In this document: piece after piece, positions 20,107 to 42,385 of the stretch | How positions within the stretch are numbered: the stretch's first letter is position 1 | Layout of the letters: every line of letters begins with the position of its first letter | From: Thermodesulfovibrionia bacterium | GTDB taxonomy: Bacteria > Nitrospirota > Thermodesulfovibrionia > UBA6902 | NCBI GenBank assembly: GCA_947259645.1 | Contig: CAMYND010000015.1 | Coordinates: 1-43,732 of the forward strand | Length of the DNA stretch: 43,732 bases | Reading direction: 5' to 3' | The notes under the pieces: generated by a model | The model's input: only the letters and a program-made list of their open reading frames with translations | Database searches by the model: none | Told to the model about the DNA's origin: nothing | Made by a program: the position numbers and the translations under genes

Positions 20107-20634
20107 TTATTCCAGATCAAGAAGGCGTTTCAGGTCCTCTTCAAGTGCCTCTTTGTCCTGGGAAGGCTGATCTTCATCAGGCTCCTTGTCTGCATCAACC
20201 GGCTTTTCTGATCTTACCGGTGGTTCCGGTTCAGGGCGGGGCTCTTCCACTGCAGGCTCAGAAATCCCCGCTTCTGTGGCAGACTGGAGTTCCCTCACCT
20301 GCGCGAGAATAAGGTGTACGTCAAGGGGATCGGGCAGGCAGGCATCTACTTTTGTATTGATAAACTCCACAGGAATGCCCTGAGTCAGGGCGGTGAGAAG
20401 AATTAATGACGAACCTGAAAAAACCTGTTTGGCCGATAAAAAGAATTCAAGTTCTTTTGTATAGTAGCTTTTCACATCAAGGATAAGAACAGAGGGGCCG
20501 CTGGCGCTGATTATGTTTTCCGCGTTGATGGTCTTGTCATGAAGCCGGACATCATAGCCTTTTTGCCGCAATGCATTAAATAGGATATTACCTCTTATTG
20601 ATTCAGCGGAAAAGATGAGTACCGGAACTGACAT
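20107..20634 (-). CDS. Degenerate receiver-domain protein with acidic Pro/Glu-rich tail
   Basis: A 175-residue protein: a receiver-like alpha/beta domain (1-118) and a disordered, E/P/D-rich tail (about 120-160) ending in a charged amphipathic helix (EALEEDLKRLLDLE). The likely phosphoacceptor strand is SVLILDVKS with D53, and LLTA (79-82) matches the conserved Thr strand. However, the acidic pair at the start is FSAES instead of DD, and the usual Lys-Pro is LPDP. Phosphorylation is therefore doubtful; a scaffold or pseudo-receiver role is more likely. It starts nine bases after the actin-like gene, so the two are probably co-translated. The function is inferred only. Confidence 0.75.
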   Translation of the reverse strand: MSVPVLIFSAESIRGNILFNALRQKGYDVRLHDKTINAENIISASGPSVLILDVKSYYTKELEFFLSAKQVFSGSSLILLTALTQGIPVEFINTKVDACLPDPLDVHLILAQVRELQSATEAGISEPAVEEPRPEPEPPVRSEKPVDADKEPDEDQPSQDKEALEEDLKRLLDLE

Positions 20635-20643
20635 GCAAATGTG

Positions 20644-21858
20644 TCAGGCTTCTGTCATTGCCATGATCAGCGCGCCCTTGGCCGTTGTATTCAGAGGATC
20701 ATCGGCAATGCGCACTTCTGAAATCTCAAGCGGAAGGCGGACGCTCTTGAGGGCGGTTTCAAAGCTTTCCCTGCATCCCTTCGGCATGCAGGTGCCGCCG
20801 CTTAATACGATTGGGATCGGTTCCGCTATCTTCGGTACTGTTTCCGAAGCAGAGATGACACGCTGGATGCTCTGAACCAGCGTCAGAATAGTGTCCATAT
20901 AGTAGACGTGGAGCGTTGTTTCTATTTTATCCTTTGGTATTGCTGTCAGGTCGAGGGACTCTTCCTTAATGCCTTTGATCTTCGTTGCTGACGTTCCTAC
21001 GTCACGGCCAACCATCGTGTCGATGTAGTCTCCGCCTCTCTGTATACTGAAGGTTATGACAGGAACTGAAAGGTAGGACAGGCAGACGTTGCACATTCCT
21101 CCGCCCATGCTGATTCCTATGCCGGTAAAATTATCTTCTGCAAGTTCAGACATAACAACAGCCATGCCTTCATTAATGGAGACCGGCGTGTAACCAAGAC
21201 TCTCAAGATACATTTTAATAATTGATTCATGTCCGGCCACATATGAGGTCCTTTCAATAGGCTCTCCGGGGATGCTGAAACAGATCGTCTCACCAAATGT
21301 CTTGGGCTTCTGGATCAGCGTGCTGATAATGGCCTGTATAATTTTTATCCCTTCATTTTCTTTTGGACTGAGGAGGCCTTTTTCAACGGGCCTTCGCGTG
21401 TTGGCGTTAAAGAGGTTTGCAAAGTCTTCAGCTGAGTATCCGATTATGTAATACTGTCCTTCAAGTTCAAAGAACATAACATCATTCTGGGTAAGAATCT
21501 TTTTGGTGAACTTTGACTGGGGGATGGTGAAGAACGCGTTGACCTGCTTCACCATATGAATTTTACGGCCTTTGTTCTGGGCCATAACAATGTTGCTGGT
21601 ACCAACATCGAGTCCGACAGGGCCGCTGGGGCTCTCTGCGTCCTCCCCTGTTTCTCTATCTTTTGAAACGACTTTTTTGTAGGAGGTATCTATCGCGGCG
21701 TCAATTTTTTTGTCTGATGCTTTCCCTGATTCTGACGCGTCTTTCACCGGTATCTCATATTTTGAGGCATCAAGAGATCCTTCCTCTTCATCTCCCCCTG
21801 CGTCAGCCAGCCGCTTCTTAAGCCTTTCGATTTCATCCTTGTAATCACTATCAGCCAT
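20644..21858 (-). CDS. Actin-like ATPase with N-terminal charged extension (MreB/MamK/ParM superfamily)
   Basis: A 404-residue actin-fold protein. Residues 1-78 are an extra charged segment that begins as a short coiled coil (SDYKDEIERLKKRLADAG). The actin fold then starts with phosphate-1 loop VGLDVGTSNIVMA (81-93). Phosphate-2 is GIGISMGGGMCNV (about 247-259), where the usual Asp before GGG is Ser-Met; the adenosine loop is VLSGGTCMPKG near 355-365. It is probably a filament-forming ATPase, but neither MreB (no mreCD), FtsA (no 1C domain evident) nor DnaK. GGAGG precedes the ATG. It heads an operon with the pseudo-receiver gene. Fold confident, role unknown. Confidence 0.85.
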   Translation of the reverse strand: MADSDYKDEIERLKKRLADAGGDEEEGSLDASKYEIPVKDASESGKASDKKIDAAIDTSYKKVVSKDRETGEDAESPSGPVGLDVGTSNIVMAQNKGRKIHMVKQVNAFFTIPQSKFTKKILTQNDVMFFELEGQYYIIGYSAEDFANLFNANTRRPVEKGLLSPKENEGIKIIQAIISTLIQKPKTFGETICFSIPGEPIERTSYVAGHESIIKMYLESLGYTPVSINEGMAVVMSELAEDNFTGIGISMGGGMCNVCLSYLSVPVITFSIQRGGDYIDTMVGRDVGTSATKIKGIKEESLDLTAIPKDKIETTLHVYYMDTILTLVQSIQRVISASETVPKIAEPIPIVLSGGTCMPKGCRESFETALKSVRLPLEISEVRIADDPLNTTAKGALIMAMTEA

Positions 21859-22318: not shown

Positions 22319-23782
22319 ATGGAAACCATACATGAAACATCTACTGACCACCTGATCAAGATTCTTTTTGTTGATGATGAAGAAAATGTTCTCCGGTCAT
22401 TGAGACGCCTCTTTGCAACGGACAATGTCTTTGATGTCAAACTGGCCAATTCCGGAAAAGAGGCCCTTGAAATCATAAAAAATGAACCCAATATCGGCAT
22501 CATAGTTTCAGACCAGAAAATGCCGGGAATGAGCGGCGTTGATTTTCTGGAACAGGCAAAAAATATCATTCCCGACGCCCCCAGGATGCTTATTACCGGA
22601 TATCCTGACATAAATGTCATGGAAGATGCCATGAACAGGGGCGGCGCCTGCATGTTCATAAAGAAGCCATGGGAAGACGAAAAACTGACCCAGGTTATCA
22701 GGGAAGCTGCGCAGCAGTTCATTCTGAAGAAGGAAAACAGGAGACTGCAGGATATAGTTTTGCAGCAGAATGATGAACTGCAGAACTGGAATTCTAAGCT
22801 TGAGCAGAACGTTGAGGAGCAGACCCGGGAAATAACACGGCTGCTGGAAAATGAGAAACTCTTGTCAGCAAGAGCAACCGCGGCAGCAAAGGCTGAAAAG
22901 GAAAAAGTAACAGAGCTGGAGCAGTCCTACGAAGAGCTTGAATCAATAGCCTCTGAACTTGACAAGGCGCGCAGTGACCTGGAAGAGGCAAACCGCGAGA
23001 TCAAGGAGGCTTCCATCCAGATGGTGCAGAACGAAAAGATGAGCGCCCTTGGAGAAATGACCGCGGGTGTGGCCCATGAGCTGAACCAGCCCCTGAATGC
23101 AGTGAAACTCATATCACAGGATATCCTCAGAGATATAGCAAAGGACAGGTTCGATAAGGAATACCTCGCTGATGACTTGAAGGAAATCGTCGGTGAAGTG
23201 GACAGGATGTCCACTATCATCGATCATATGAGGCTCTTCAGCCGGCGTACCGTGGACGACGGAGTAGCAGAAGCAGATGTCAACAGCGCTGTTGAGGGCG
23301 TTTTCAAATTGCTGGGCAAGCAGCTGACAAATCATAATATCCTGGTAACAAAGGATATGGCCCCTGATCTGCCCCCCGTTTCAATTGACCAGATCCGTCT
23401 GGAGCAGGTACTGGTAAACATTATTAATAATGCCCGGCAGGCCCTGGAATCATTCTGCAAGGAAGAGATGAAGATAGAGATACGGAGCTGCCTGGAAGAA
23501 AATAAAAAGGGAAATATGGTCGCCGTATATATCAAGGACAATGCCGGCGGTGTACCGGAAGATATAAAAGTGAAGATATTTGAACCCTTCTATACCACAA
23601 AGAGGCCGGGCAAGGGAACAGGCCTGGGACTGAGTATTTCCAGCAAAATCGTGGCAGATGCAAATGGAAAGATCAACCTGGATGTTGAAGAAGGAATTGG
23701 TTCAACATTCGGCGTGCTGCTTCCTGTCAGGGAGTCAACAGATGATGATAAATCAGATGAGAACCAGGACATCGCTGAATGA
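22319..23782 (+). CDS. REC-coiled coil-histidine kinase (cytosolic)
   Basis: A 487-residue signalling protein: a receiver domain (about 13-130; D19/D20, phosphoacceptor D65 in VSDQKMPG, K116) of the RpfG-like subtype, a coiled coil (about 135-235), a HisKA domain with H253 in GVAHELNQPLN, and an HATPase domain with NIINNARQAL, DNAGGVPE and GKGTGLGLSIS. No membrane segment, so it is cytosolic and probably takes phosphoryl input at D65. AGGAGAAGGA precedes the ATG. First gene of the six-gene phosphorelay operon; its kinase core is a paralogue of that encoded at 25059. Confidence 0.93.
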   Translation: METIHETSTDHLIKILFVDDEENVLRSLRRLFATDNVFDVKLANSGKEALEIIKNEPNIGIIVSDQKMPGMSGVDFLEQAKNIIPDAPRMLITGYPDINVMEDAMNRGGACMFIKKPWEDEKLTQVIREAAQQFILKKENRRLQDIVLQQNDELQNWNSKLEQNVEEQTREITRLLENEKLLSARATAAAKAEKEKVTELEQSYEELESIASELDKARSDLEEANREIKEASIQMVQNEKMSALGEMTAGVAHELNQPLNAVKLISQDILRDIAKDRFDKEYLADDLKEIVGEVDRMSTIIDHMRLFSRRTVDDGVAEADVNSAVEGVFKLLGKQLTNHNILVTKDMAPDLPPVSIDQIRLEQVLVNIINNARQALESFCKEEMKIEIRSCLEENKKGNMVAVYIKDNAGGVPEDIKVKIFEPFYTTKRPGKGTGLGLSISSKIVADANGKINLDVEEGIGSTFGVLLPVRESTDDDKSDENQDIAE

Positions 23783-23824
23783 GTCTAAGAAATATGGCTC
23801 GTAAGATCTGGAGGAATTGAAAGA

Positions 23825-25066
23825 ATGAAGGTAATGCTTATTGGTGACAAACCGGAAATCAGGGAGAAGATGAAAAGCCTGATTGATAAGGAAGGCTGCG
23901 AGACAATGCTTGCCTCGAACGGGCATGAAGGCATAGAGATCTGTGATAAAGAGAAGCAGGACCTGGTGATCACGGATTTAAACCTCCCGGGCATGGATGG
24001 GATAGAGATTATGCATTCGGTAAAGCGCCTGTCTCCAGAAACTGAAGTTATTCTGGTCACAGGAGACGGGGAATATGATACAGCAATCCAGGCCTTGAGA
24101 GAAGGGGCACTGGATTACCTCAAAAAGCCTGTGGATATTGATCAGCTGCTCCTTTCACTCGGGCGGTGCAGGGAAAAAAACAAAAAGAAAAAAGACACAC
24201 CTCTCATAACTTCGGTCCTTGTATTAGATGATGACAACGTCGCACGGAAAAAACTGGAGAGGATCATGGCCAAGGAAGGCTATAAGGTCATGTCAAGGGG
24301 GAACGGCAAAGAAGGCCTGGAGCTTTTCAAAGAACAGAAGATCGATATTATTCTCGCTGATCTGAAGATGCCGGGGAAAAACGGGATTGAGGTGCTGAAA
24401 GAGGCAAAGGCACTTCGCAGTGATGTAGAGGTAATCATGATTACAGGCCATGGTGATGAAGAGTCAGCTATCGAGTCGATGAGAGAAGGGGCAATAAATT
24501 TTCTCAAGAAACCGATTGATATTGAGCAGCTCCTCGCGGCCGTAGAAAAAGCAGTGGAAAAGTTAACCCTGCAGAGAAGCCTCGAATACAGGACCAGAGA
24601 ACTGGAGCTGACAAAAGCGGTATTAACACGAACGACATCAAACAAGGAGATAGTCCTTGACCTTACGGAAGGGATGGACGGTCCTGCAAAGGCATTTACC
24701 AGTGAACTGCTTGACTTTCTGCCAATGACTTTTTTCACGGCTGACAGCCAGGGGAATATCCTTTTCTGCAATAAAGGTTTTTCACGGCTCTTTGACCGTA
24801 CGCCGAAGGAGATCAGTGAAGACTGGCCTGAAAAACTGCAAAAAATAGGCATAGAAGGTGTGGCCTCCGATGATTTAAAAAACAGGATACAGGGACTCTT
24901 TGAATCTGACCTGAACAGGATAGAGGTGGTACCCTTGGGCACGTATGCCTTTATGCTTTTAACGAAAATTAAAGTGTTAACAGGTGATGGGGAAAACACC
25001 CTCGCACTGGCAGTACTGAGGGGCGAGAAAAAGACCGTCAAGGCAGGTGAAATAAACAATGGATGA
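23825..25066 (+). CDS. Tandem receiver protein with PAS-like C-terminus (REC-REC-PAS)
   Basis: A 413-residue protein with two receivers and no kinase. REC1 (1-118) has D51 in ITDLNLPG and K101, but its acidic pair is reduced to GDKPE (D8, K9). REC2 (about 130-250) is canonical: DDD at 135-137, D179 in LADLKMPG, LKKP. Residues about 295-400 form a PAS-like domain (LDFLPMTFFTADSQGNILFCNKGFS), possibly binding a small ligand. Its end overlaps the next gene by eight bases, indicating coupling. Likely a phosphoryl sink or adaptor between kinases. Confidence 0.9.
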   Translation: MKVMLIGDKPEIREKMKSLIDKEGCETMLASNGHEGIEICDKEKQDLVITDLNLPGMDGIEIMHSVKRLSPETEVILVTGDGEYDTAIQALREGALDYLKKPVDIDQLLLSLGRCREKNKKKKDTPLITSVLVLDDDNVARKKLERIMAKEGYKVMSRGNGKEGLELFKEQKIDIILADLKMPGKNGIEVLKEAKALRSDVEVIMITGHGDEESAIESMREGAINFLKKPIDIEQLLAAVEKAVEKLTLQRSLEYRTRELELTKAVLTRTTSNKEIVLDLTEGMDGPAKAFTSELLDFLPMTFFTADSQGNILFCNKGFSRLFDRTPKEISEDWPEKLQKIGIEGVASDDLKNRIQGLFESDLNRIEVVPLGTYAFMLLTKIKVLTGDGENTLALAVLRGEKKTVKAGEINNG

Positions 25067-26675
25067 TAAGAAAGTTCTGATTGTAGATGACGATGAAATG
25101 ATCCGGAGGCAGCTGGGAGAAGCGCTCCAGAGAAACTTTTTTAATACGATGCACGCCGGGAGCGGGGAAGAGGCATTAGAAATCGTCCAGAAAGAAAAAG
25201 TAGACGTACTTCTTGTTGATGTAAAACTTCCGGGCATGAACGGCCTTGAGTTGCTCAGAAAGGTCAAGGTCCAGTCACCAACAACAGAGGTCATCATTAT
25301 AACGGGCTTTGGAAATCAGGAAATAGCCATTCAGGCGCTGCGCCAGGGGGCCATCGACTATATTGAAAAACCGGTTGTGATGGACGAACTTAACGCTGCG
25401 CTCGGAAGGGCGATTGAGAGTATGAGAGAAAAGCAGGACCTGGTATACGAGAATACGATTCTGATTGTTGATGACGAAGAAACCCCTCTCAGGAGATTAA
25501 AACGGTCTCTGGACAAGGAAAATTACTCCACCTTCACCGCCACCAACGGGATGGATGGACTGGAAATTATCAATAACAATAAGATAGATGTGGTCATTAC
25601 CGATATAAAGATGCCCGGCATCGACGGACTTGAGCTCCTGAGCAGGGCCAAAAAGATGTATCCTGACATTGAAGTAATTGTAATAACCGGGCATGGCGAC
25701 CAAGAGGTTGCCGTTAGTGCCCTGAGGGCAGGCGCAATAGACTATTTGTGCAAACCTATCGACCTTGATGAACTGCTGCTTTCAGTTAACAAGACTGTAG
25801 AGAGGATCGGCCTGAACAGGACAAGCCTGTACAGGAACAGGGAGCTGAAGCTTTCAAAAGAGATCGTCTCCAAAATGAACGAAGAACTGGAAAGAAAAGT
25901 TACTGAACGTACGGAGAAGTTGAGCGAGACCCAGTCCCAGCTGATGCACACATCGAAGTTAGCAACTCTTGGCGAGATGAGCGCCGGACTGGCCCACGAG
26001 ATGAATCAGCCCCTCAACAGCATCGCTCTTACTTCTGAAAATCTCCGGAGGATGAAAGACCGGGACAAGCTGACTGATGAAAAGCTGGGCAGGGCGCTGG
26101 AGGATATTGAGGGCTCTGTGAGAAGGATGGCCAGGATAATAAACCATATACGGATATTTGCACGTCAAGAGTCACTTAAGTTCAGTGAAATAGAGGTCAC
26201 AGAGCCGATTGAGGGCGCCCTGAGCCTCCTTGGACAGCAGCTGAGGACCCATGGCATTAATGTCATAGAGGAATATGCCGATGACCTTCCCAAGATAACG
26301 GGAGAGCCATACCAGCTTGAGCAGGTCATCACCAATGCGATCTCCAATGCCCGCCATGCAATGGAAGAGAGAGAAGAGAAAAAAATTGAGGGGTATAAGA
26401 AAGAGCTTATCTTCAGGACAGCACGGAGGAACGGTGATGTCTGCATCTCTCTGACTGACAACGGCTCAGGCATGACAGACGAGCAGAAGGAAAAGATGTT
26501 TCAGCCTTTTTTCACGACCAAGGCCGTAGGAAAGTCAACAGGGCTGGGCATGTCCATAAGCTTCGGAATAATAGAATCCCATCACGGAAGTATTGAAGTA
26601 GACAGTGAACTCGGCAAGGGAACGACGGTCAGCCTGATCCTCCCTTTAAAACAGCCGGAAAAAAGTGAGGAATAA
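25059..26675 (+). CDS. REC-REC-histidine kinase (cytosolic)
   Basis: A 538-residue protein: REC1 (D54 in LVDVKLPG), REC2 (D182 in ITDIKMPG), a helical linker, HisKA with H313 in GLAHEMNQPLN, and HATPase with NAISNARHAME, DNGSGM and STGLGMSISFG. Both receivers look phosphorylatable. There is no membrane segment or sensor domain, so activity is presumably set by phosphorylation of its own receivers. Kinase core and order parallel the protein at 22319, suggesting duplication. Three bases separate it from the next gene. Confidence 0.93.
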   Translation: MDDKKVLIVDDDEMIRRQLGEALQRNFFNTMHAGSGEEALEIVQKEKVDVLLVDVKLPGMNGLELLRKVKVQSPTTEVIIITGFGNQEIAIQALRQGAIDYIEKPVVMDELNAALGRAIESMREKQDLVYENTILIVDDEETPLRRLKRSLDKENYSTFTATNGMDGLEIINNNKIDVVITDIKMPGIDGLELLSRAKKMYPDIEVIVITGHGDQEVAVSALRAGAIDYLCKPIDLDELLLSVNKTVERIGLNRTSLYRNRELKLSKEIVSKMNEELERKVTERTEKLSETQSQLMHTSKLATLGEMSAGLAHEMNQPLNSIALTSENLRRMKDRDKLTDEKLGRALEDIEGSVRRMARIINHIRIFARQESLKFSEIEVTEPIEGALSLLGQQLRTHGINVIEEYADDLPKITGEPYQLEQVITNAISNARHAMEEREEKKIEGYKKELIFRTARRNGDVCISLTDNGSGMTDEQKEKMFQPFFTTKAVGKSTGLGMSISFGIIESHHGSIEVDSELGKGTTVSLILPLKQPEKSEE

Positions 26676-26677
26676 AT

Positions 26678-29488
26678 ATGGCAAAGATATTAATTATTGA
26701 TGATGAAGAGATCATCCGAAGAAATCTCAGTGACATTCTGGAGATGGATGACCATGAAGTCTTCATGGCTGACTGCGGAGAAGCTGGCCTCGAAGAATTA
26801 AAGGACAAACATCCGGACGTCATGCTCGTTGATGTGAAAATGCCCGGCATGGACGGGATCGAGGTCCTGAAGCGGACAAAAGAGATAACATCCCACCCGG
26901 AAGTCATTATCATTACCGGCCACGGCGGCATAGAGACAGCGATAGAAGCGATCAGAGGCGGCGCTTTTGACTACATTACAAAACCTGTCAACTTCGACGA
27001 ACTCGAGATCACTATCGGACGGGCCCTGGAAAAGCAGAGCGTCCTCGTTGCAAACAGGCAGATGCAGGAAGAAACAGAGCGGCAGAAGGACGAGCTTCTT
27101 GTTGCAAAAGACTATACTGACAACATCCTCAAATCAATGGTCGACACATTGATTGTCGTAGACCCCGGCTGCATGATAAAGACCGTCAATCAGGCAACGC
27201 TTAATGTCCTCGGATATAAGGAAAATGAGCTCGACGGCAAGCCCGCGTCCCTGATTTTTGATGAAGAAATAGGCACCGGCATGCTTGAAACCCTTATCAG
27301 GGAAGGCTCAGCAGAAAACCTCGATATGCACTTCAAAACCAAAACAGGGGAGATCATACCGGTCAGTCTTTCCGGATCAGTGATGCGTGACAAAAAAGGC
27401 AATGTCACCGGAGCCGTTGCCATCTTGCGGGACATGAGTGAAGCCAGAAACCTTATGGAAAAAGAGAAAGAGCTTGCTGTTGCTGCCGCATCTGCCGGCG
27501 CCGAAAAGAAAAAGGCTGAGGAGTGGGAGTCAACGTTTAACTCCATTACAGACATGGTTTCGATCCATGACACAGACTTTACCATATTGAACGTCAACCG
27601 TTCCCTTGCAGAGACCTTTGAGATGAGCCCGGATGATCTTGCCGGGAAAAAGTGCTTCACCTTTTTTCACGGGGCACAGTGCCCTGTGGATGAATGTCCT
27701 GTTCAGGAAATGAAAGAGAAAAAGAAACCGTCAAGCAAAGAGTTTTATGATGCCCACCTCGGCATGTATATGGAAATGTCCGTGTCACCCGTGCTGGGAG
27801 AAGAAGGGGAACTCAAGGGTTTTGTGCATATTGCAAAGGATGTAACAGAACGGCACAAGGCAGGGGAGCAGCTCAAGCAGGCAAAAGAAGCAGCTGAAAG
27901 CGCAAGCATGGCAAAGAGCGAATTCCTCGCGAGCATGAGCCATGAAATCCGCACGCCAATGAACGGCATACTCGGGATGTCAGAGCTCATCCTCAAGACA
28001 GACCTCTCAGAGCGTCAGAAAAAATACGCGGAAATGTCACAACTCTCAGCAGAAAACCTCCTGGACATAATTAATGATATCCTGGACTTCTCAAAGATCG
28101 AGGCAGGGAAGCTCGACATTGAAGAAATTGACTTTGATCTGAGGGAAGTCATTGAGAACACCTGTAAAGTGCTCGGATTAAGGGCTGATGAAAAGAGGAC
28201 CAGCCTGACCGCTCATATCGCTCCTGATATCCCTGTGTGGATAAAAGGCGCACCCGGCCGTCTCAGACAGATCATCAACAATCTGGTGGGAAATGCCATT
28301 AAATTTACTGAAGACGGAGAGATCAAGGTCTCTGTCAAGCCTGATGCCCGGAAAACGCGGGGAAGAGATGGAAAAGATAAAAATGCCTTTTCCCTTGTTT
28401 TTTCTGTATCTGACACCGGCATCGGTATTCCTGAAGAAAAACTCGGAAATATTTTTGAAAGCTTTACACAGGCTGATGCCTCCACAACCCGGAAATACGG
28501 GGGGACCGGCCTTGGCCTCGCAATATCGCGCCAGCTGACCTCGTTAATGGGCGGAGAAATTCATGTGGAAAGCGAAGTGGGAAAGGGAAGCACCTTTCAC
28601 TTTACGATTCTGTTCCACCCTGCTGAACGAGAGATACCGGCCAATGCCGGAGCCGAGACCTCATCGTGCGCTGCGGAAGATTCAAATGCGGACAGGCCTT
28701 CTCTGAACCTTCTTCTCGTTGAAGACAACGCTGTAAACCAGGTTGTTGCCGAAGAGATGCTCCTTGGAATGGGGCAGAAGGTCACCATTACTGAAAACGG
28801 ACAAGAGGGTCTCGATAAGCTGGAAGAAGGAAACTTCGACATCGTATTCATGGATATTGAAATGCCGGTGATGGACGGCTTTGAGGCTGTTGCATGTATC
28901 AGGAATAACAGCAGCGGCAGCTACTCCCCTGACATACCGGTAATCGCGATGACAGCAAACGCGGTAAAGGGAGACAAGGAAAAGTGCCTTGACGCAGGAA
29001 TGACAGACTACATATCCAAGCCGCTGAAAATGATAGACTTTGAACAGATTCTTGACCGCTATAAGCCTGAAAACGGAAAGAGGGTTAACGAAGAAGTCAA
29101 GACAGAGCCGGAACAGAGGGAAGAAGAAAAAGAGATACAGATAGTGGACCTTGAGGCAGCCCTTGAGTCATTAGGCGGAAGCGAGAAAATTCTGAAAAAG
29201 ATAGCCGCTGTGTACTACAAAGACATCCCGAAACAGCTTGAAATACTCAGACAGGCCTTTCACGATGAGGACATGGTTTTGATCAGGCGGCAGGCCCATT
29301 CCATAAAGGGCGCTTCCTCTAATCTCCGGGCTACCCTCATGTATGACGCGGCCCGCGCAGTTGAGCTGACCGCTGCGGACGGGAACCGCGAAGAGGCTTT
29401 TGAACTCTCTAAGAAAATCGATCCTGCTTTAGAAAAAACACTGGCCGCCCTTGAAGAATCAGGAATGCTGGAGCTGGTAGTGAAATAA
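26678..29488 (+). CDS. Hybrid sensor kinase REC-PAS-PAS-HisKA-HATPase-REC-HPt
   Basis: A 936-residue multi-domain phosphorelay protein. Order: REC (D52 in LVDVKMPG), PAS1 (about 143-255), PAS2 (about 283-395), HisKA with H422 in [12 protein letters not shown], HATPase ([29 protein letters not shown]), REC (D726 in [11 protein letters not shown]) and HPt with H874 in [14 protein letters not shown]2 has three cysteines, C326-x8-C335-x4-C340, a possible metal or redox site. All parts of a His-Asp-His relay are in one chain. No membrane segment. It is followed five bases later by a free HPt that resembles its own C-terminal domain. Confidence 0.94.
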
Positions 29489-29493
29489 TCAGT

Positions 29494-29871
29494 ATGAAAT
29501 CTGCCGGAACTGACAGAAGAAGTAACTTTATTATTCTGGACCTCCCCGCAGCCCTCGCTGCAATAGGCGGGAATGAGGAGGTGCTGAAAAAAATGGCCTA
29601 TATATTCTATGAGGACATGCCCCGCGTTCTGGAAAAACTGAGGAAAGTCCTGGAAGATGAAGATGCCGCACTCATTATGAGGGAAGCTCACACCATCAGC
29701 GGCGCGTCATCAAGCCTCAAGGCAAACAAGCTGGCAGAAGTTGCCGTAAGGGTAGAACAGGCTGCAAGCAGAGGCCGGTACAGTGACGCATCCAGGCTGT
29801 TTGAAAGACTGGGAGTTGAACTTGAAAAAGTCCGAACTGCACTTGAAATAACAGGTATTCTGGACAGATAG
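29494..29871 (+). CDS. Free-standing HPt phosphotransfer protein
   Basis: A 125-residue histidine phosphotransfer domain. The phospho-accepting residue is H66 in REAHTISGASSSL. The Lys that normally follows in HxxKGxS is replaced by Ser (TISGAS); this Lys usually aids phosphotransfer, so kinetics may differ. The sequence aligns along its length with the C-terminal HPt of the preceding gene (DLPAALAAIGGNEEVLKK against [18 protein letters not shown]), so it looks like a tandem duplicate. Probably shuttles phosphate from the kinases to the single receiver encoded next. Confidence 0.9.
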   Translation: MKSAGTDRRSNFIILDLPAALAAIGGNEEVLKKMAYIFYEDMPRVLEKLRKVLEDEDAALIMREAHTISGASSSLKANKLAEVAVRVEQAASRGRYSDASRLFERLGVELEKVRTALEITGILDR

Positions 29872-29905
29872 GGCCCGGATACTTTAATAAAAAAAGGAGG
29901 AGAAG

Positions 29906-30307
29906 ATGAAAATCTTAATAGTGGAAGATGACTTAACAACACTGGAAATGATGGAAGGTATTCTATCAGAGCACGGCGACTGCGTGAAGGCGGAAAACGG
30001 CCAGCTGGGTGTAGATGCCTTTCAGGAAGCGCTGAAAAGCGGCAGCCCCTTTGACCTCGTCTGTCTTGACATACTCATGCCGGAAATGGATGGCCAGGAA
30101 ATGCTGAAACGGATACGGGACATAGAAAAGGATGAGGGCATAAATGCGGACAGGGAAGTCAAGGTTATTATGACCACAACCATGGATACGGCTGACCATG
30201 TTTCTGAAGCCTATTACAAAGGCGGCTGCACCTCTTATCTGATTAAACCTGTGGAGGCAAAAAAGCTTGTTGCGCTGCTGAAGGCCTTCGGTCTCGTCGC
30301 GGTCTGA
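29906..30307 (+). CDS. Single-domain CheY-like response regulator
   Basis: A 133-residue stand-alone receiver: acidic pair E7/D8/D9, phosphoacceptor D55 in VCLDILMPEMDG, the conserved Thr in IMTTTMD and Lys in YLIKPVEA. No output domain, so it should act by binding a partner, as CheY does. AAGGAGGAG precedes the ATG. Last gene of the phosphorelay operon; the promoter of the coiled-coil/dynamin cassette begins 160 bases downstream. Confidence 0.93.
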   Translation: MKILIVEDDLTTLEMMEGILSEHGDCVKAENGQLGVDAFQEALKSGSPFDLVCLDILMPEMDGQEMLKRIRDIEKDEGINADREVKVIMTTTMDTADHVSEAYYKGGCTSYLIKPVEAKKLVALLKAFGLVAV

Positions 30308-30469: not shown

Positions 30470-30496
30470 TAAGGTTTTTATAAAATATGTCGATAA
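30470..30496 (+). promoter_or_regulatory. Strong sigma-28 (FliA)-like promoter before the coiled-coil/dynamin cassette
   Basis: TAAGGTTT (30470-30477), an 11-base spacer, then GTCGATAA (30489-30496). This matches 14 of 16 positions of the enterobacterial FliA consensus TAAAGTTT-N11-GCCGATAA at exact spacing, 68 bases before the coiled-coil gene. It is the best such site in the window. Confidence 0.65.
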
Positions 30497-30564
30497 AGAC
30501 ATATGTTTTTGATAATTGATGAGGGGAAAGATCTGATAAATATTATGCAACAAGGTGGTATGTA

Positions 30565-32283
30565 ATGAATAACGGAAACGGTTTTTACATAGATGTGGTC
30601 AGCAAGTCCATCATATCAGGGCTGTCAGATGAAATAGGGCGTAACATAACAGAACAGATAAATGAGTTCATCAAGGAGTTCCTGAATAATGAATTCTCAG
30701 GCCTGATCGCTGAAAAAATAAAAACAGAGACTGACCGTCTGGGGCAGGCGCTTTCAGAAACAGAGAAAAAGACCCGCGCCTCTGTAGAAAATTCCAATAA
30801 AGATATAAAAGAATACATCGAAGACAATATAGGAAAAATCCTCAAAAAAGAGGACGGACAAAAGGCTGTACTCAGCGACGAAATAGCTGATATGAAAGAG
30901 ACATTGAGTACAGCAAAAAAAGAGCAGGATAAACTCCTCAAGGGAGTCATCGAAAATGAGCTCGTCGGCCTCAAGGACAAACTTGAAATCTCCCTCGAAA
31001 ACATGAAGGAAGATATCACCGTCTCGGGAAGTGATACCCGCTCCGCGATTACCAAGAATATCAGCGATATGAGGAGCTACTTTGAGGAGCAGATCGGGAG
31101 GACCCATGAGCGGGAAAAAAGTTCGATATTAAAAATTGTTGAACAGCTTCTTGACGGTTTGTCAGTGGTTAAGAAGGACATCTCGAAGTCCATGGAAAAG
31201 CTCATCAATGAAAAAGAGCAGAACGGGCAGCTGGAGGGAGTTATAGAAAAACAATTTTCCGGCCTCAGGGAAAAACTGGAATCCTCAATCAACACGATAA
31301 AAGAAGATATGACGGAACGGGGCGGTGAAACCCGCAGTCTTGTTACTAAATCCAACGATGAGATGAAGAGCTACTTTGAAGAGAACATCAAGAGTTTTCT
31401 CCAAAGAGAAAATGATTCATCCGGAAAAATCTCTGAGGAGATGCTCGATGGTATCGCAGATTTCAAACGGGACATCGAGAGATCCTTGTCTGAACTCATA
31501 GAAGAGAAAGGTCAGACCACCGGGCTTGACGACGAGCTCTATGAGATGAAACAGATCGTGAGCAAAACGAGAAAAGAGCAGAACGAGATGCTGAAGGGAA
31601 TCATCGAGAACCAGCTGATCAGCCTTACCAAAAGGGTGGGAAGCACTATTGAAGGTATACAACAGGGCATGTCAGGCATTGAAGACAAGACAAAGCAGCT
31701 GGTTATGCATTCCAACAAAGAAATAAAGATGTACATTGAGGACTATGTCGGGAAAAACAAGAATGATAAAAACACAAGCGAAGAAATCACGGCACAGCTC
31801 CTTGAGAGCCTGCAAGATATGAAGAAAGAAATCGAACAAAAGCTGGACAAACAGAGCAAGAAAGGCGCTGACAGCGACCTTGTCTACGAGGTGAAAGAGG
31901 CAGTAAACAAAGGGGACAAGGAACAGATTGAAATGCTGAAAGGGGTTTTCTATTCTGTTAAGCGCTTAACAACCGCGGCCAAGAAAGACCAGGAAGTGGC
32001 CGACAATATGGCAGCAGAGTTCCGCAGTTCCCTCGATGTGCTGTACGGACATATAAACCGCCTTGAAAATGAACGGGACGAGCTCGGGGTTGAGCTGATG
32101 AGGCTGGCTGGCGATGAATATCTGAAAACCCGATTCACAGAGATGGAAGATGAACTGGATAAGGCCCGGAACGCAGCAGAGGGATACCAGCAGGAGAACA
32201 AAGAGCTCCAGGAAAAACTGAAAAAATTCCAGAGCCTCTGGGAAAAAAGTAAAGAGAAAAAAAAGTCTCGTAGAGTCTCATAA
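30565..32283 (+). CDS. Large coiled-coil protein with internal repeats
   Basis: A 572-residue, highly charged, almost entirely helical protein without membrane segment or recognised family. A repeat of about 90-120 residues occurs four times, starting near residues 45, 134, 232 and 352 (each begins SGL/VGL/ISL, then a helix, a TRS-like turn, K-x2-DEMKSYFEE, and an LLDGL-x3-K-x-DIE helix). The segment LLKGVIENEL / MLKGIIENQL precedes units 2 and 4. Residues about 480-572 are a final coiled coil with a basic end (KSKEKKKSRR). The dynamin-like GTPase gene follows after 14 bases, so they are probably partners. A scaffold role is inferred. Confidence 0.85.
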   Translation: MNNGNGFYIDVVSKSIISGLSDEIGRNITEQINEFIKEFLNNEFSGLIAEKIKTETDRLGQALSETEKKTRASVENSNKDIKEYIEDNIGKILKKEDGQKAVLSDEIADMKETLSTAKKEQDKLLKGVIENELVGLKDKLEISLENMKEDITVSGSDTRSAITKNISDMRSYFEEQIGRTHEREKSSILKIVEQLLDGLSVVKKDISKSMEKLINEKEQNGQLEGVIEKQFSGLREKLESSINTIKEDMTERGGETRSLVTKSNDEMKSYFEENIKSFLQRENDSSGKISEEMLDGIADFKRDIERSLSELIEEKGQTTGLDDELYEMKQIVSKTRKEQNEMLKGIIENQLISLTKRVGSTIEGIQQGMSGIEDKTKQLVMHSNKEIKMYIEDYVGKNKNDKNTSEEITAQLLESLQDMKKEIEQKLDKQSKKGADSDLVYEVKEAVNKGDKEQIEMLKGVFYSVKRLTTAAKKDQEVADNMAAEFRSSLDVLYGHINRLENERDELGVELMRLAGDEYLKTRFTEMEDELDKARNAAEGYQQENKELQEKLKKFQSLWEKSKEKKKSRRVS

Positions 32284-32297
32284 CCTCCGAGGAACCA

Positions 32298-34859
32298 ATG
32301 ACCGATAAAGACGAACGAAAAATCAGGCATTTTCTTGACAATATTGAAGACATACTTGCCAGGCTTTCAAACCTGGGCCTTCCACAGTACAGCAGACGCA
32401 TTGAAAACCTTGAGAATAACATTAAGGCATTCTCAAAGCTTACCGTAAAAAGCGGCCTCGTCGGCATCACAAGCTCGGGTAAATCCTCCCTCCTGAACGT
32501 CCTTCTTGGAAGAGGAGAAAAGGTCCTCAAGGAACAGAGCAAGGCCACGACAAACATGATCGTTATCTCCTACAAATCTGAGGAGCCTGAACTGGAGATA
32601 CATTTTGAAGAAGGCGAGCCTGTTAAAAAGAGGGGCCCAAAGATACTCACCGAGTCGCTCTGGAAGTACACCTCTGAAGATGAAAACCCCCAGAACAAGT
32701 TTAACGTAAAATATATCAGGCTTGGGCTGCCCTCATTTCTTCTTGAGAGCGGCATTGAACTTGCTGACACGCCGGGACTGGACGCCCACGGCCATAAGGA
32801 ACATGAAGACCTTACGCTCCGTGAATTTCTGCCTCAGGCTGACCTGATCGTCTACCTCTCATCTATCAGAAGTCCAATGAAAGAGGCTGACAGGAAAACC
32901 CTCAACAAGATTATGGATGCTGATCAGCGGATTGTTTTTGTTCAGACATGCAAAGGCGCTGTTGTGGAGCGCAGCAATGAATCAGGAGGGTCAGAGTCTG
33001 TTGAAGAGCTTCTGGTAAAGTATAAAAAAGAGCTCCAGAAAGCGATCAGTCCCTATCCAAAATTAAAAGACTCCCCGATCGTCCAGGTCGAAACCACACA
33101 GGCATTAAAGTGCTTCAAGAAAAAAGATGAAGCCCGCTGGCAGGACTCAGGCATGGACGAATTAACATTTGTAATCAAGAATGTTACCAAGCAGCTGCAG
33201 GATGAGTACACCCTGAAAAACCTGAGAAAAACCGTTGATGAAGTCGGTATGCTGAACACACTCATACGGGACACGCTCAAGGAAGAGGGAGAAAAAGACG
33301 GAAGTCTGGAAGTCCACGAAAAGGACCTGAAAAACATCCGTACCTACAGCGAAAAGATAGAGAAGGACGCGAAAAAGATCGTGGTAAAGTGGAAAAAAGA
33401 GCTGGATGCTGCCGCGGTGTATAAAAAATTTAAGACCGAACTGTCAAAGGTGTATGGTGACCGCTACGACTTTAACCCGATGCATGACAAGGCATTTATT
33501 AAAAAGGCCGAGTCTATCAGCATGGAAACGCAGAAAATAAAAAATAACTGTCTTGCCGCCCTGGACAAATCACGGGAAACTTACAAAAAATGTTTTAAGG
33601 AAATGGGGCTCGATGTCCGGCGGGCTGACATCCAGAACATTACCAAGGGAGGATTTTTTCTCCCCAATGTACAGAAGAAGCGTGTATCAGACGCATTAGG
33701 CGGCGGAAAAGGTTCGGGAATGTCATTCTGGAAACAGAAAGACACAGCATCAGCCGAATACATAGACAAGAAGAAGTTCATAGACGACCTCGGGAAGTCT
33801 ATGAAGTATTTTTTTGAACCCCTGCTGAACCACCTTGAGTGGTGGCATAAAACCGTAACCTACACATTTGTCGAGCCCTTGAAGAATAAAATATCCGCGG
33901 CTGAAGACGACGTGAAGAATATTAAAAAGGGCTCTTCCTTTGACGATGATCAGCACCGAAACCTCACGATCATCAGTGAGGATATTGAAGATATATTCAG
34001 GGATGTTGAATACCTTTCCCAGCGGGGAGTTGCAGAGAGGAAAGTTGCCAGGTACACAAAGTCCGGAAGCGGGATAATCGCGGAGCAGGAACGCATGGAC
34101 TGCAAGAATGTTATTGCGCAGCTCTATAACCGTATTTTCGAAAATATGTTTCACTCATACTATATGAAGTGCCTCGCTGATTTTTCCTCTGAGCCTGGTA
34201 AAAAGATAGCCCTTGTGGGTCAGGACTTTGGTTCCCAGCTCAGCTTTCTGCGGCGGTTATTCCGCCTCAATGAAAGGGCTTTCAGACGTGTCCGTGAGAC
34301 ATCAGTGCCATTTACCCTGAACATGGGGGAAGATGGTGTCAGACTCCCTGACATTCCGGTTGACGGCGAACTAAAAGACCAGTTTTCCTTTTATGTGCTG
34401 GGAAGCAACAATGAGTCGCTTGATGCGGCCAGGAAATATGATATCTTTGAAAAAGCTGACATCATTCAGGTCATGGTTGATGACCTTCACCGGGTTGCAT
34501 CTGCCATCAGTGATTTAAAAGAGAGAAACATGCTTTTTGACCTGCTCAATCAACACAGAAATAAACTGCTTATGACCTATCCCCGGGCTGCCTACTTTCA
34601 AAAGGACAGACTCCATATACTGGTTGACGAAGCAGTGGCTGAAATAAACGGCATCTTTGCCCCTGACCAGATCCACTGGCTGATTTATGAAAATTTTGAA
34701 ATACGGTACAGCCACTTCAATGACCTCGCCCTGAAAATGATTCATTATAATCTGAAGCCTGATGAATGTATTCAGGAGTGGAAGAAACTGGGCATCCCCC
34801 TTGATGACCCCTTCAATGAGATGACATTGATAGAGCAGTTTGAGGAACTGGCTGCATAG
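32298..34859 (+). CDS. Dynamin-like large GTPase
   Basis: An 853-residue dynamin-family protein. G1 GITSSGKSS (56-64) follows strand LVG; G2 includes T84/T85 in SKATTNM; G3 is DTPGLD at 157-162, followed by the dynamin-type LREFLPQADLIVYL. G4 is atypical (VQTCKG, near 214-219, in place of TKxD). Residues about 300-850 are mostly helical, as in the bundle and stalk of bacterial dynamin-like proteins; no paddle or membrane helix is obvious. Bacterial relatives remodel or protect membranes. It lies between a coiled-coil gene and a glycine-zipper membrane protein gene on one strand. Family confident, role unknown. Confidence 0.9.
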   Translation: MTDKDERKIRHFLDNIEDILARLSNLGLPQYSRRIENLENNIKAFSKLTVKSGLVGITSSGKSSLLNVLLGRGEKVLKEQSKATTNMIVISYKSEEPELEIHFEEGEPVKKRGPKILTESLWKYTSEDENPQNKFNVKYIRLGLPSFLLESGIELADTPGLDAHGHKEHEDLTLREFLPQADLIVYLSSIRSPMKEADRKTLNKIMDADQRIVFVQTCKGAVVERSNESGGSESVEELLVKYKKELQKAISPYPKLKDSPIVQVETTQALKCFKKKDEARWQDSGMDELTFVIKNVTKQLQDEYTLKNLRKTVDEVGMLNTLIRDTLKEEGEKDGSLEVHEKDLKNIRTYSEKIEKDAKKIVVKWKKELDAAAVYKKFKTELSKVYGDRYDFNPMHDKAFIKKAESISMETQKIKNNCLAALDKSRETYKKCFKEMGLDVRRADIQNITKGGFFLPNVQKKRVSDALGGGKGSGMSFWKQKDTASAEYIDKKKFIDDLGKSMKYFFEPLLNHLEWWHKTVTYTFVEPLKNKISAAEDDVKNIKKGSSFDDDQHRNLTIISEDIEDIFRDVEYLSQRGVAERKVARYTKSGSGIIAEQERMDCKNVIAQLYNRIFENMFHSYYMKCLADFSSEPGKKIALVGQDFGSQLSFLRRLFRLNERAFRRVRETSVPFTLNMGEDGVRLPDIPVDGELKDQFSFYVLGSNNESLDAARKYDIFEKADIIQVMVDDLHRVASAISDLKERNMLFDLLNQHRNKLLMTYPRAAYFQKDRLHILVDEAVAEINGIFAPDQIHWLIYENFEIRYSHFNDLALKMIHYNLKPDECIQEWKKLGIPLDDPFNEMTLIEQFEELAA

Positions 34860-34950: not shown

Positions 34951-35322
34951 ATGGATGAGACAAAAAAGTCCACTACTACAAAAAAACCTCGTAATCGAGA
35001 GGACATAGCGATTGCATCTATGTCCACAGCAGCCGGGGCAGTTGCCGGGGGCGTAGTTACATCGTCACCCGCCATAGCTGTGGCTGGTACAGGCGGCCTT
35101 ACAGGATATGCAATAGGCCTTGGAAGTGTCTTAACCAAGGTAGGGTGCGGATCCGCCTTCGCAATCGGTGCATTCTCCGTAATCGCGGCAGGCCCTGTCC
35201 TGGGCGGTCTCTTCGGATACAGCGTGTACAAGGCTGTGAAGGACAAGCAGAGACAAAACGGTCAGAAAGCACGAACAGTTGTTGTTAAAAAGAAAAAACC
35301 CGTTTCTAACAAGACACAGTAA
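34951..35322 (+). CDS. Small glycine-zipper membrane protein
   Basis: A 123-residue protein with a basic, Thr/Lys-rich N-terminus (1-18), a glycine/alanine-rich hydrophobic region (about 20-94) able to form two or three packed membrane helices (AAGAVAGGVV, GLTGYAIGLG, AAGPVLGGLFG; many GxxxG spacings), and a Lys-rich cytosolic tail (95-123). The start at 34951 is chosen because AAGGAGG stands seven bases before it; the longer frame from 34840 lacks a site and overlaps the GTPase gene. It resembles glycine-zipper proteins in general only; a membrane anchor or substrate of the GTPase is an inference. Confidence 0.8.
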   Translation: MDETKKSTTTKKPRNREDIAIASMSTAAGAVAGGVVTSSPAIAVAGTGGLTGYAIGLGSVLTKVGCGSAFAIGAFSVIAAGPVLGGLFGYSVYKAVKDKQRQNGQKARTVVVKKKKPVSNKTQ

Positions 35323-35422: not shown

Positions 35423-35635
35423 ATGTCTGCAGCAATCGGTATCGTGGTATTTATCCTATGGATCTGGGCCCTCGTCGATGTTTTACGGAATGATTTCAGG
35501 AATGGAAATAAAGTTATATGGCTTCTGACAGTAATCCTCCTGCCCGGAGTCGGCATTGTGCTCTACTTCCTCATCGGGCGCTGCCAAAAAGTCGGGAATG
35601 AGTGTGCAGTGACAGAGAGTACAAGTAACAGCTAA
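35423..35635 (+). CDS. Small two-helix membrane protein, PLDc_N type
   Basis: A 70-residue inner-membrane protein with helices at about 4-22 and 31-52 and the motif ALVDVLRNDF...NKVIWLLTVILLPGVGIVLYFLIGR, diagnostic of the phospholipase-D/cardiolipin-synthase N-terminal domain occurring alone. AAAGGAG precedes the ATG. Stand-alone copies are common and of unknown role. It ends the rightward cassette before a terminator-like hairpin. Confidence 0.85.
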   Translation: MSAAIGIVVFILWIWALVDVLRNDFRNGNKVIWLLTVILLPGVGIVLYFLIGRCQKVGNECAVTESTSNS

Positions 35636-35788: not shown

Positions 35789-37042
35789 TTACGATACCCC
35801 GGCCTTTTGCCCGGCAACAGGAAGCATCACCGTAACCGTTGTCCCCTTCTCTTCCTCACTTACAATACTGATCGTTCCTCCGTGCCGTTTAATAATTGCT
35901 TCGGTCATGGACAGTCCGGTGCCGGTTCCCGACCCTACCTGTTTTGTGGTAAAGAACGGGTTTAATGCCTGCCTCAGAACTTCCGGAGACATGCCATTTC
36001 CATTGTCAACAACCTGAAGGGAGATCTGCTCCTTTTTTTCGTTAAAAGAGCTCATGACCTTCACTCTGCCGTTGCCCTCAACAGCATCCAGGGCGTTTTT
36101 CAGAATGTGAAGCAGTACCTGGTTGATCTCGCTCGTGGAACACTCCAGGAGGGGGGTCTGACCAAGTTCCTTTACAAACTCAACAGCGTCCACATCCTCG
36201 GAGTTCAATATGGTTACAGCATCGTCAATACTCTGATTGATATCAAGGTGACCAACTGTTTCAAGGTCAACCCGTGAAAACCTTCTCATGCTGTTGACGA
36301 TCGTAATAATCCTCTCTACACCCCGCTCTACCCTGTCGAACTTCCTGTCCATGGAGTTTTTCATATGATCATAGTTCATGCCATCCAGCAACTCTTTGTA
36401 GGCTTTCCTGAGTTCGTCTTCAAGCGGCTGATCATCCCAGTAGTCAGCCACCCTGATCAGCTTTTCAATACTCTTTTTGAGAAATCCGATCGAGCTTTTT
36501 ACAAACCCGAGCGGGTTGTTTATCTCATGGGCGATACCTGCCGCAAGCGTCCCGATTCCTGCTATCCTGTCCATCTCTATCAGCTGCAGGTCTTTCTGCC
36601 TGAGCTGCTCGGTCTTAACCTTGATTTCCGAGATCTTCTGCTCAAGCATTGAATTCTTGGCACAAATATCCGCCTGCATCTTCCGTATCGAAAGGTGAGT
36701 GCGCACCCGCGCCTTGACCTCTGCCTTGTGAAAGGGCTTTGTTATGTAATCCACCGCCCCCAGTTCAAATCCCCGTGTTATGTCTTCTATATTCGCGTTT
36801 GCCGAGAGAAAGATGACCGGCACCTCTTTTGTTGCGCGATCCGCCTTTAATGTTTCGCACACGTTATATCCATCAATGCCGGGCATGATAATATCCAGCA
36901 GGATCAGGTCCGGGATCTCATCTTTAATCATACTCAGGGCTTCTTCACCGCTCTCTGCTACCCTGCATTTTCCCAGATTTTCCAGGAGTTTCTGAAGTGT
37001 CTTCCTGCTTACCAGCTCGTCATCAACTATGAGTATTTCCAA
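35789..37042 (-). CDS. REC-histidine kinase (cytosolic)
   Basis: A 417-residue protein: receiver (1-118; D7/D8, D50 in LLDIIMPGIDG, K102), coiled linker (about 120-160), HisKA with H172 in GIAHEINNPLGF and an extended dimerisation helix pair, then HATPase (ILKNALDAV, DNGNGM, GSGTGTGLSMTEAI). It has no sensor or membrane segment. Its kinase core resembles that at 40670, including the long insertion after the His helix. It lies 21 bases after the hybrid kinase gene; the three minus-strand genes form one operon. Confidence 0.92.
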   Translation of the reverse strand: MEILIVDDELVSRKTLQKLLENLGKCRVAESGEEALSMIKDEIPDLILLDIIMPGIDGYNVCETLKADRATKEVPVIFLSANANIEDITRGFELGAVDYITKPFHKAEVKARVRTHLSIRKMQADICAKNSMLEQKISEIKVKTEQLRQKDLQLIEMDRIAGIGTLAAGIAHEINNPLGFVKSSIGFLKKSIEKLIRVADYWDDQPLEDELRKAYKELLDGMNYDHMKNSMDRKFDRVERGVERIITIVNSMRRFSRVDLETVGHLDINQSIDDAVTILNSEDVDAVEFVKELGQTPLLECSTSEINQVLLHILKNALDAVEGNGRVKVMSSFNEKKEQISLQVVDNGNGMSPEVLRQALNPFFTTKQVGSGTGTGLSMTEAIIKRHGGTISIVSEEEKGTTVTVMLPVAGQKAGVS

Positions 37043-40669: not shown

Positions 40670-41521
40670 ATGATACAGAGTCATGATACGGACAATGGAA
40701 CAACCCGGACAGGTGAGAACCCCGAGGGGAAGGAAGCCCTCGACTCAAATCTCATTCACAACGCAAAAATGACCCTGATGGGTGAACTCCTTGCCGGCGT
40801 TACCCATGAGATAAAAAACCCCCTCGCCTTTGTCCAGGCAAACATGGGCAACTTCAGGAAGTTTCTCGACAAGCTCCTGAAGCTGATCGACACGTACGAT
40901 GATCTGGAGCTCCCAGATGAGACAAAAAAAGAGATCGAAAAAATAAAAACTGAGATCAATTACGACTATATCAAAAAAAGAGTCTCCGAGATGACCGACA
41001 GGTCCAAAGACGGTGTCGACCGCATATCAAAGATCATAACGGGCATTTCCAATTTTTCCCGGCGTGACACGGATAAGTACGAAGCCGCTGACATCAACAA
41101 CGCCATTGATACAACACTGGAAATCCTGTACCACGAATACAAGAACCGAATTGAGATTATCAAAGAATATGGGGATTTTCCACCCGCGGTCTGCAATATC
41201 GGCAAGCTGAACCAGGTTTTCATGAACATCCTGGTCAATGCATGCCATGCGATCGAGGATACGGGGGAAATAAGAGTAAAGACAAGCACTGAAAGCGGAA
41301 TGGTCTGCATTGCAATCAGTGATTCAGGAAGCGGCATACCTGAAGACGTGGCAAAAAAGATCTTTGATCCTTTTTTTACTACCAAACCTGAAGGCAAGGG
41401 TACGGGGATCGGTCTTGCGATAAGCCAGGAAATAATCAGGGAACATAAGGGCAGCATATCCCTGCAAAGCAGAGAAGGAGAAGGCACAACCTTTACTATC
41501 AAGGTTCCCCTGAAGCGCTGA
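40670..41521 (+). CDS. Cytosolic histidine kinase without sensor domain
   Basis: A 283-residue minimal kinase: a 30-residue N-terminus, HisKA with H46 in GVTHEIKNPLAF and an elongated helical hairpin (insertion about 70-110), and HATPase with NILVNACHAI, DSGSGIPED and GKGTGIGLAIS. No sensor or membrane segment, so it must be switched by a partner. Close relative of the kinase core at 35789. GAGGTGAT precedes the ATG. The REC-PAS gene follows after 75 bases with its own promoter-like sequence. Confidence 0.92.
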   Translation: MIQSHDTDNGTTRTGENPEGKEALDSNLIHNAKMTLMGELLAGVTHEIKNPLAFVQANMGNFRKFLDKLLKLIDTYDDLELPDETKKEIEKIKTEINYDYIKKRVSEMTDRSKDGVDRISKIITGISNFSRRDTDKYEAADINNAIDTTLEILYHEYKNRIEIIKEYGDFPPAVCNIGKLNQVFMNILVNACHAIEDTGEIRVKTSTESGMVCIAISDSGSGIPEDVAKKIFDPFFTTKPEGKGTGIGLAISQEIIREHKGSISLQSREGEGTTFTIKVPLKR

Positions 41522-41596: not shown

Positions 41597-42385
41597 ATGG
41601 CCGATGATTCAAAGGTAACGATACTGTGTGTGGATGATGAACAGGACATTGTTGACAGCCTGTTCGACACCTTCATGGACTCTTATAATGTGAAGACCGC
41701 CTGCAGCGGGGCAGATGCATTGAAGATATTCGATGAAGAGGACATTGCCGTTGTGATAACGGACCAGCGGATGCCCGAGATGGAAGGCACAGAGCTTCTC
41801 GAAAAGATCCATGAAAAAAAGACGGCCTGCAAAAAGATCCTCCTTACAGGGTACGCGGATATCAATGCTGCCATCGATGCCATTAACAAAGGCTCTGTTG
41901 ACAAATACTTTTCCAAACCCTGGGATGATGATGAACTGACACGGGCAGTGGAGCACCTTGTTTCCATGTATGACTTTGATAAGTTCCTGAACCAGATGCA
42001 GAATGACGGGGACCGCATTACAAGAGAGATGAACTCTGTTAAATCCGCCTCAGTCGCTATAAGTGATTTTTTTGATAATTACCATATGGGGGTGTGCATA
42101 TTTGATGCAGACAACAGGGCTGCCTTTCTGAATAAAAAAGGATGTTCTCTCTTGAATTACAAAAATACCAGTGGCATAACAGGAATGGGGTTCAAAGACG
42201 TTTTCCTCGTTGACCCGGTCGCAAAAAAAGAATTTCAGCGCAAACTTTCGAAGGGTAAAGCATCACCGATAAAAATAGATGCACGAGAGAGCGACGGAAC
42301 AAAGACAGTACTTATCTCGAGCCTGGTCTTTGACGGAGGAGAAGGCAGCGACAAGGTCTGCGGCGTTGTTTTCATGAAAGAATAA
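41597..42385 (+). CDS. REC-PAS response regulator
   Basis: A 262-residue protein: receiver (about 7-125; DDE at 13-15, D56 in ITDQRMPEMEG, Lys in YFSKPWDDDE) of the RpfG-like subtype seen in the kinase at 22319, a short helical linker, and a PAS-like domain (about 150-260; FDNYHMGVCIFDADNRAAFLNKKGC). No DNA-binding or enzymatic output. AAGGAGGATGTT precedes the ATG. Probably the partner of the kinase encoded upstream. Confidence 0.9.
   Translation: MADDSKVTILCVDDEQDIVDSLFDTFMDSYNVKTACSGADALKIFDEEDIAVVITDQRMPEMEGTELLEKIHEKKTACKKILLTGYADINAAIDAINKGSVDKYFSKPWDDDELTRAVEHLVSMYDFDKFLNQMQNDGDRITREMNSVKSASVAISDFFDNYHMGVCIFDADNRAAFLNKKGCSLLNYKNTSGITGMGFKDVFLVDPVAKKEFQRKLSKGKASPIKIDARESDGTKTVLISSLVFDGGEGSDKVCGVVFMKE

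Follow-up and report, generated by a model that had tools for sequence, protein, structure and literature searches.

A coiled-coil protein and a dynamin-like GTPase, encoded by adjacent genes, form a conserved pair that is nearly confined to magnetotactic genomes, with a Sumerlaeota genome as the exception. The pair was analyzed in a stretch of 43,732 nucleotides (hereafter the window) from a Thermodesulfovibrionia bacterium of the Nitrospirota (contig CAMYND010000015.1, positions 1 to 43,732). The gene of the coiled-coil partner (CC, 572 aa) is located at 30565-32283 on the forward strand and is followed, after a gap of 14 bases between the open reading frames, by the GTPase gene (853 aa, 32298-34859, forward strand). 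A single contig of 63 kb carries both this pair and a complete Nitrospirota magnetosome gene cluster. The pair is plausibly an accessory, two-component-linked machine of the dynamin type that tethers or remodels membranes in magnetotactic bacteria, a reading that falls only a little short of probable. Magnetosomes serve as model organelles of bacteria, and the pair touches on the shaping, maintenance and bundled arrangement of their membranes in deep-branching phyla. A unit of two genes that carries a clear signature and occurs in a defined magnetotactic subset, it lends itself to direct genetic and structural tests.

Domain architecture of the GTPase

The GTPase matches the Pfam family Dynamin_N with an E-value of 1e-17, over the cut-off. 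Together with the gene coordinates, this bears out an earlier sequence-only reading of the window, in which a coiled-coil gene and a dynamin-like GTPase gene were placed next to each other at a distance of 14 bases. The G domain spans residues ~50-285 and contains the motifs GITSSGKS, TT (84-85) and DTPG (157-160), which are invariant across 20 aligned sequences. Next come a helical trunk (286-627), in which a FFLPNVQKKRVS stretch is conserved near residues 453-464, and a C-terminal G-like domain of ~220 aa (~630-853) without a P-loop. The AlphaFold model obtained with the 20-sequence alignment (pLDDT 79, pTM 0.58) shows an alpha/beta domain at the C terminus, joined to the G domain by a long helical trunk, and its Foldseek matches include BDLP (5e-17), IniA (2e-15) and LeoA (2e-10), as well as Cj-DLP and mitofusin. 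Membership of the GTPase in the dynamin superfamily is secure, and GTP hydrolysis, nucleotide-dependent assembly and membrane binding would be expected of such a protein.

The C-terminal domain is modeled by itself with a pLDDT of 91.5. Its best Foldseek match is EHD2 (4e-5), after which comes a long series of small GTPases and dynamins whose TM-scores are moderate, and G proteins account for nearly all of the 50 structural matches listed. The predicted fold is G-like, yet GKS/T is found at the P-loop position in none of the alignment rows, where the sequence reads GQDFGSQLS and similar, and the domain is therefore read as a putative pseudo-G domain. Within the trunk, the segment 447-487 is variable and predicted with low confidence. 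The FFLPNVQKKRVS stretch at its edge, hydrophobic and then basic, is invariant and may be a contact site for the membrane or for a partner.

The closest solved folds are those of BDLP from Nostoc and IniA from mycobacteria, which share the dynamin G domain and the helical trunk with the GTPase at an identity of about 13-15%. In contrast to these proteins, the GTPase contains the additional ~220-aa G-like domain lacking a P-loop and is accompanied by a dedicated coiled-coil partner gene. The combination of G domain, trunk, P-loop-less G-like domain and dedicated coiled-coil partner adds a dynamin architecture to the bacterial set.

The coiled-coil partner and conservation of the pair

The CC of the host contains no proline and no cysteine, and 38% of its residues are charged. 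Judged by eye, a unit of ~100 aa is repeated in it about four times in degenerate form; a BLAST self-comparison of the protein does not detect these repeats. Its N-terminal motif YIDVVSKSIISGLSDEI is common to all partners: YxDxV...LS/A is present at the N terminus of every CC, with lengths ranging from ~140 to 1124 aa. A tail (AGDEYLK...) is common to one partner type.

The GTPase is single-copy in the host genome, and relatives of the host within its genus, family and order only contain proteins of ~600 aa that match the G domain alone. When GTPase residues 301-853 were searched against 230 genomes of the class, full-length homologues, 41-48% identical over that part, were found in 16 genomes, several of which carry two copies. 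In a GTDB scan with the GTPase alignment, matches were found in Ca. Magnetobacterium casense, Magnetominusculus xianensis, Magnetocorallium paracelense and other Nitrospirae bins, and also in one Desulfamplus bin and a Sumerlaeota sequence. Many of the matched Nitrospirae bins stem from collections that are known for their magnetotactic bacteria. In the GTPase tree, two conserved paralogous clades occur in one family, and the tree gives no firmly supported sister for the window sequence.

A CC gene adjoins the GTPase gene at 24 of the 26 readable loci, the exceptions being L056 and L036, the latter from a Ca. Magnetocorallium genome whose other locus carries two CCs. In the Sumerlaeota pair the GTPase is only 26% identical, the gene order is reversed and the genes overlap; its CC retains the N-terminal motif and has a C-terminal hydrophobic helix. 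Since the CC stays beside the GTPase and its motif is kept even in this reversed arrangement, the co-variation of the two is the best sign that both proteins work together. At one GTPase locus of Ca. Magnetocorallium paracelense (L045/L066) two CC genes are present, encoding proteins of 396 and 1124 aa. The tail of the 1124-aa protein is of the type seen in the other clade, and this protein may be the displaced partner of the other GTPase in this genome (L036/L075), which has no CC gene beside it.

Linkage to the magnetosome gene cluster

The magnetochrome domain (PF18509) was searched for because homologues of the GTPase came from Magnetobacterium, Magnetominusculus and Magnetocorallium, and it was found on the contig of the window itself, at 47369-47581. 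The magnetosome gene cluster occupies contig positions 43386-62289 and consists of man1-like, mamK, mamP, mamM, mamQ, mamB, mamA, mamE and mad23-26-like genes. The man1-like gene (contig 43386-43889, forward strand) begins inside the window, and mamK starts beyond it, at contig position 43960, some 9 kb 3' of the GTPase gene. MamK and MamM score 464 bits (cut-off 400) and 402 bits (cut-off 350), respectively, against their NCBIfam models. The cluster is collinear with those of casense, Magnetominusculus and others, and its order agrees with the published order from man1 to mad26, in which mad28 is found upstream of man1 (PMC8353452).

A Mad28-type actin-like protein is encoded at 20644-21858 on the reverse strand (Pfam Volactin, 2.6e-83). 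In three other genomes, its relatives (60-68%) directly adjoin the magnetosome cluster on the man1/mamK side. The neighboring genes for a hypothetical protein (20107-20634, reverse strand) and a MinD/ParA-like ATPase (18866-19819, reverse strand) are likewise found beside the magnetosome cluster in two other genomes (L116 and L117). The CC and GTPase genes are located between the mad28-type actin gene and man1/mamK, in a stretch of ~21 kb with many two-component genes. Part of this extended magnetosome region is an unusually dense phosphorelay array (22319-30307), in which receiver, kinase and Hpt genes lie directly 5' of the CC gene.

The position of the pair invites comparison with the chain network of MamK, Mad28 and Mad20/23/25/26, coiled-coil and cytoskeletal proteins that are encoded in the same clusters (PMC12748827). 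The pair is flanked by mad28-type and mamK genes of this network kind, but its CC differs from the network proteins in its signature motif and in its tie to a GTPase. A GTPase is not mentioned in the 2025 study of the coiled-coil and actin-like chain proteins (PMC12748827), and in the open literature, to which the survey was confined, no report was found that links a dynamin to the magnetosomes of these bacteria.

The host is magnetotactic, and the other sampled members of its family have no magnetochrome domain. This suggests that the magnetosome cluster was gained horizontally, or was retained by the host alone, outside the two families that PMC9376291 names.

Co-occurrence with magnetotaxis

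With the magnetochrome domain, a sequence feature, as the proxy for magnetotaxis, 23 of the 230 genomes of the class are positive, among them 13 of the 16 GTPase carriers. The remaining three carriers, from magnetotactic genera, have a completeness of 56-75%, while all carriers in the class that are at least 84% complete are magnetochrome-positive. Ten magnetochrome-positive genomes of the class give no GTPase match, so that the pair is accessory and not core. The tractable magnetotactic strains Magnetospirillum gryphiswaldense and Desulfovibrio magneticus RS-1 are not known to have it. Most genomes are bins, several of them from magnetic enrichments, and mis-binning could inflate the co-occurrence; this is less likely for the host, in which the single 63-kb contig bears both the pair and the cluster. 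Taken from these genome sequences, the link between the GTPase and magnetotaxis in Nitrospirota appears strong, which is not proof of function.

The pair could also be a general dynamin system for the cell envelope or polarity of large Nitrospirota cells, with lineage or habitat driving the association with magnetosomes and with hitch-hiking accounting for the position at the cluster. Most carriers come from one, almost entirely magnetotactic family (f18, counted as 19 genomes), where the pair is unlinked from the magnetosome cluster. In the complete genome G144 the two are 340 kb apart, and in most carrier genomes they are on different contigs. The pair is furthermore present in the Sumerlaeota genome, where no magnetochrome domain is found, and its family is therefore wider than magnetotaxis. 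However, the carriers outside f18, namely the host (family f1), G089 (family f9) and Desulfamplus, are again all magnetochrome-positive. With f18 excluded, the two carriers in the class both fall within the 7 magnetochrome genomes of ~211 (p=0.00095). In the order of Desulfamplus (Desulfobacterales) the single carrier of 389 genomes, with the GTPase on a contig of 3 kb, is one of 17 magnetochrome-positive genomes (p=0.044), and the combined p-value of both sets is 0.0005. Within the family of the host, GTPase and magnetochrome domain are both restricted to this genome, and 36 relatives have neither. An envelope function independent of magnetosomes is accordingly a serious alternative, albeit a somewhat unlikely one.

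Linkage and co-occurrence are the two observations that suggest a role of the pair in magnetosomes. In the accessory membrane machine favored here, the fixed N-terminal motif of the CC would dock onto the GTPase, with the coiled-coil rod setting the reach or spacing. GTP-driven assembly at the membrane would then tether or remodel the magnetosome membrane or that of the cell envelope. Such a machine would help to arrange magnetosomes in chains or bundles; making the individual organelles would not be its task.

Regulation and the relation to RdcA-RdcB

The CC gene is preceded by a candidate FliA (sigma-28)-type promoter, TAAGGTTT-N11-GTCGATAA, at 30470-30496 on the forward strand, at a distance of 69-95 bases from the CC start. 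The sequence-only reading had called it near-consensus, and indeed 14 of 16 positions agree with the sigma-28 consensus TAAAGTTT-N11-GCCGATAA. In the whole 3.41-Mb genome only three sites, this one included, match TAARNNTT-N11-GYCGATAA exactly. With at most one mismatch, this pattern is matched 25 times in the genome, compared to 6 times for the reversed pattern. The genome scan also places FliA-type sites 5' of genes that were recognized by eye as flagellin, FlgM-like and CheX-like genes; a FliA regulon therefore exists in the host genome, which makes the promoter credible. As a part of the system, however, the promoter finds no support in the comparison. Upstream scans of 19 homologous CC starts reveal no FliA-type site, and scans of the whole homologous loci yield 8 sites with at least 13 of 16 positions, compared to 11 for the reversed control, i.e. 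no enrichment. Control by FliA as a conserved feature of the CC and GTPase is thus not supported, and the strong site in the host is a species-level trait. From the earlier proposal of a membrane-remodeling machine tied to motility or cell polarity, the membrane machine stays plausible.

The two-component genes around the pair recur in part in Magnetominusculus. A histidine kinase encoded near mamK (40670-41521, forward strand) is 56% identical (E=2e-97) to the kinase whose gene adjoins the CC-GTPase pair there. The response regulator that follows it, with receiver and PAS-like domains (41597-42385, forward strand), is 48% identical over its full length (E=6e-72) to the regulator encoded directly upstream of the CC gene; in both cases these are the best matches within the own genome. 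A protein with receiver and histidine kinase parts (35789-37042, reverse strand) is 50% identical in its kinase half to the product of the third two-component gene in the Magnetominusculus neighborhood.

These genes and the FliA-type site are also what would be expected from a signaling GTPase that, with its partner, binds and regulates a sensor or response protein, is tied to the motile state by the promoter and does not reshape membranes. A precedent is found in Escherichia coli, where the dynamin-like GTPase RdcA (CrfC/YjdA) and its partner RdcB (YjcZ) belong to the FlhDC/FliA regulon and activate DgcE (PMC6510439), and where yjcZ has a FliA site (PMC4183435). The sequence-only reading had regarded known bacterial dynamin systems as lacking a set of this kind, a view contradicted by RdcA-RdcB, which combines a dynamin-like GTPase, an adjacent partner gene and flagellar regulation. 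The order of the genes is nevertheless different, with the GTPase before the partner, and RdcB is by sequence not a coiled-coil protein and is unrelated to the CC. In a profile comparison with RdcA, the alignment is limited to 74 columns in the region of the P-loop, and homology to RdcA beyond the P-loop was rejected, so that the parallel is a functional one only. Moreover, the FliA site is not conserved, and the loci L046-L054 have no kinase neighbors beside the pair. A purely signaling role is consequently improbable.

For the accessory membrane machine, expression of the pair would be tied to two-component signaling and, in the host species, also to late flagellar gene expression. In its most specific form, put forward only tentatively, the proposal makes the pair a dynamin-type machine, the first in a bacterial mineral organelle. 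The GTPase with its C-terminal pseudo-G domain, anchored by a CC of tuned length, would tether or remodel magnetosome membranes, or tie magnetosome bundles to the envelope, and would be switched on with the flagellar program in the host species.

Other dynamin systems and neighboring genes

LeoA/LeoBC and Cj-DLP1/2 resemble the pair in having an operon-encoded partner, but there the partner is a second dynamin instead of a coiled-coil protein. LeoA is the closest curated family: the PADLOC LeoA model matches the GTPase with an E-value of 6e-17, while the LeoA/HP0731 family of NCBIfam (NF041922) gives 31 bits (E=1e-7), far below its cut-off of 325, which places the GTPase outside this family. 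An anti-phage or island system of the LeoABC or dynamin type, to which these matches and the sporadic presence of the pair could point, is highly improbable, since a LeoB/LeoC-type partner dynamin is absent (the LeoBC model gives only 0.06, and this to the coiled coil), the window contains no defense genes, viral or phage-borne copies number zero and two paralogous clades are conserved within one family. A phage or plasmid origin was likewise rejected; there is no phage match and no relative on a viral contig, and plasmids give matches to the G domain only.

The two genes 3' of the GTPase encode a glycine-zipper protein of 122 aa (ATG at 34954, to 35322), without a family match, and a PLDc_N protein of 70 aa (35423-35635; PF13396, E=9e-13). 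That all four genes form one membrane cassette, as the sequence-only reading had proposed, now has very little to recommend it. The genes are consecutive and on one strand, but the intergenic gaps around the two small genes measure 94 and 100 bases, and tblastn against all fetched loci finds homologues of neither outside the window itself. When the co-occurrence of homologues was checked, the larger cassette fell away, and the CC was what remained with the GTPase (24 of 26 loci).

Other genes adjoin the pair elsewhere. In one of the paralogous GTPase clades present in Magnetominusculus and its kin (loci L050, L052, L054, L055, L068 and L071-L074), a third conserved gene without a Pfam match is found just 3' of the pair (335-360 aa, MAEIEG..DDFQQML.KLKQRVN). 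In MYbin3 (L047/L069), the CC-GTPase pair has a gene for a DUF697 (PF05128) membrane protein on one side and a similar gene on the opposite one, and the glycine-zipper protein encoded 3' of the pair in the window possibly has an analogous role.
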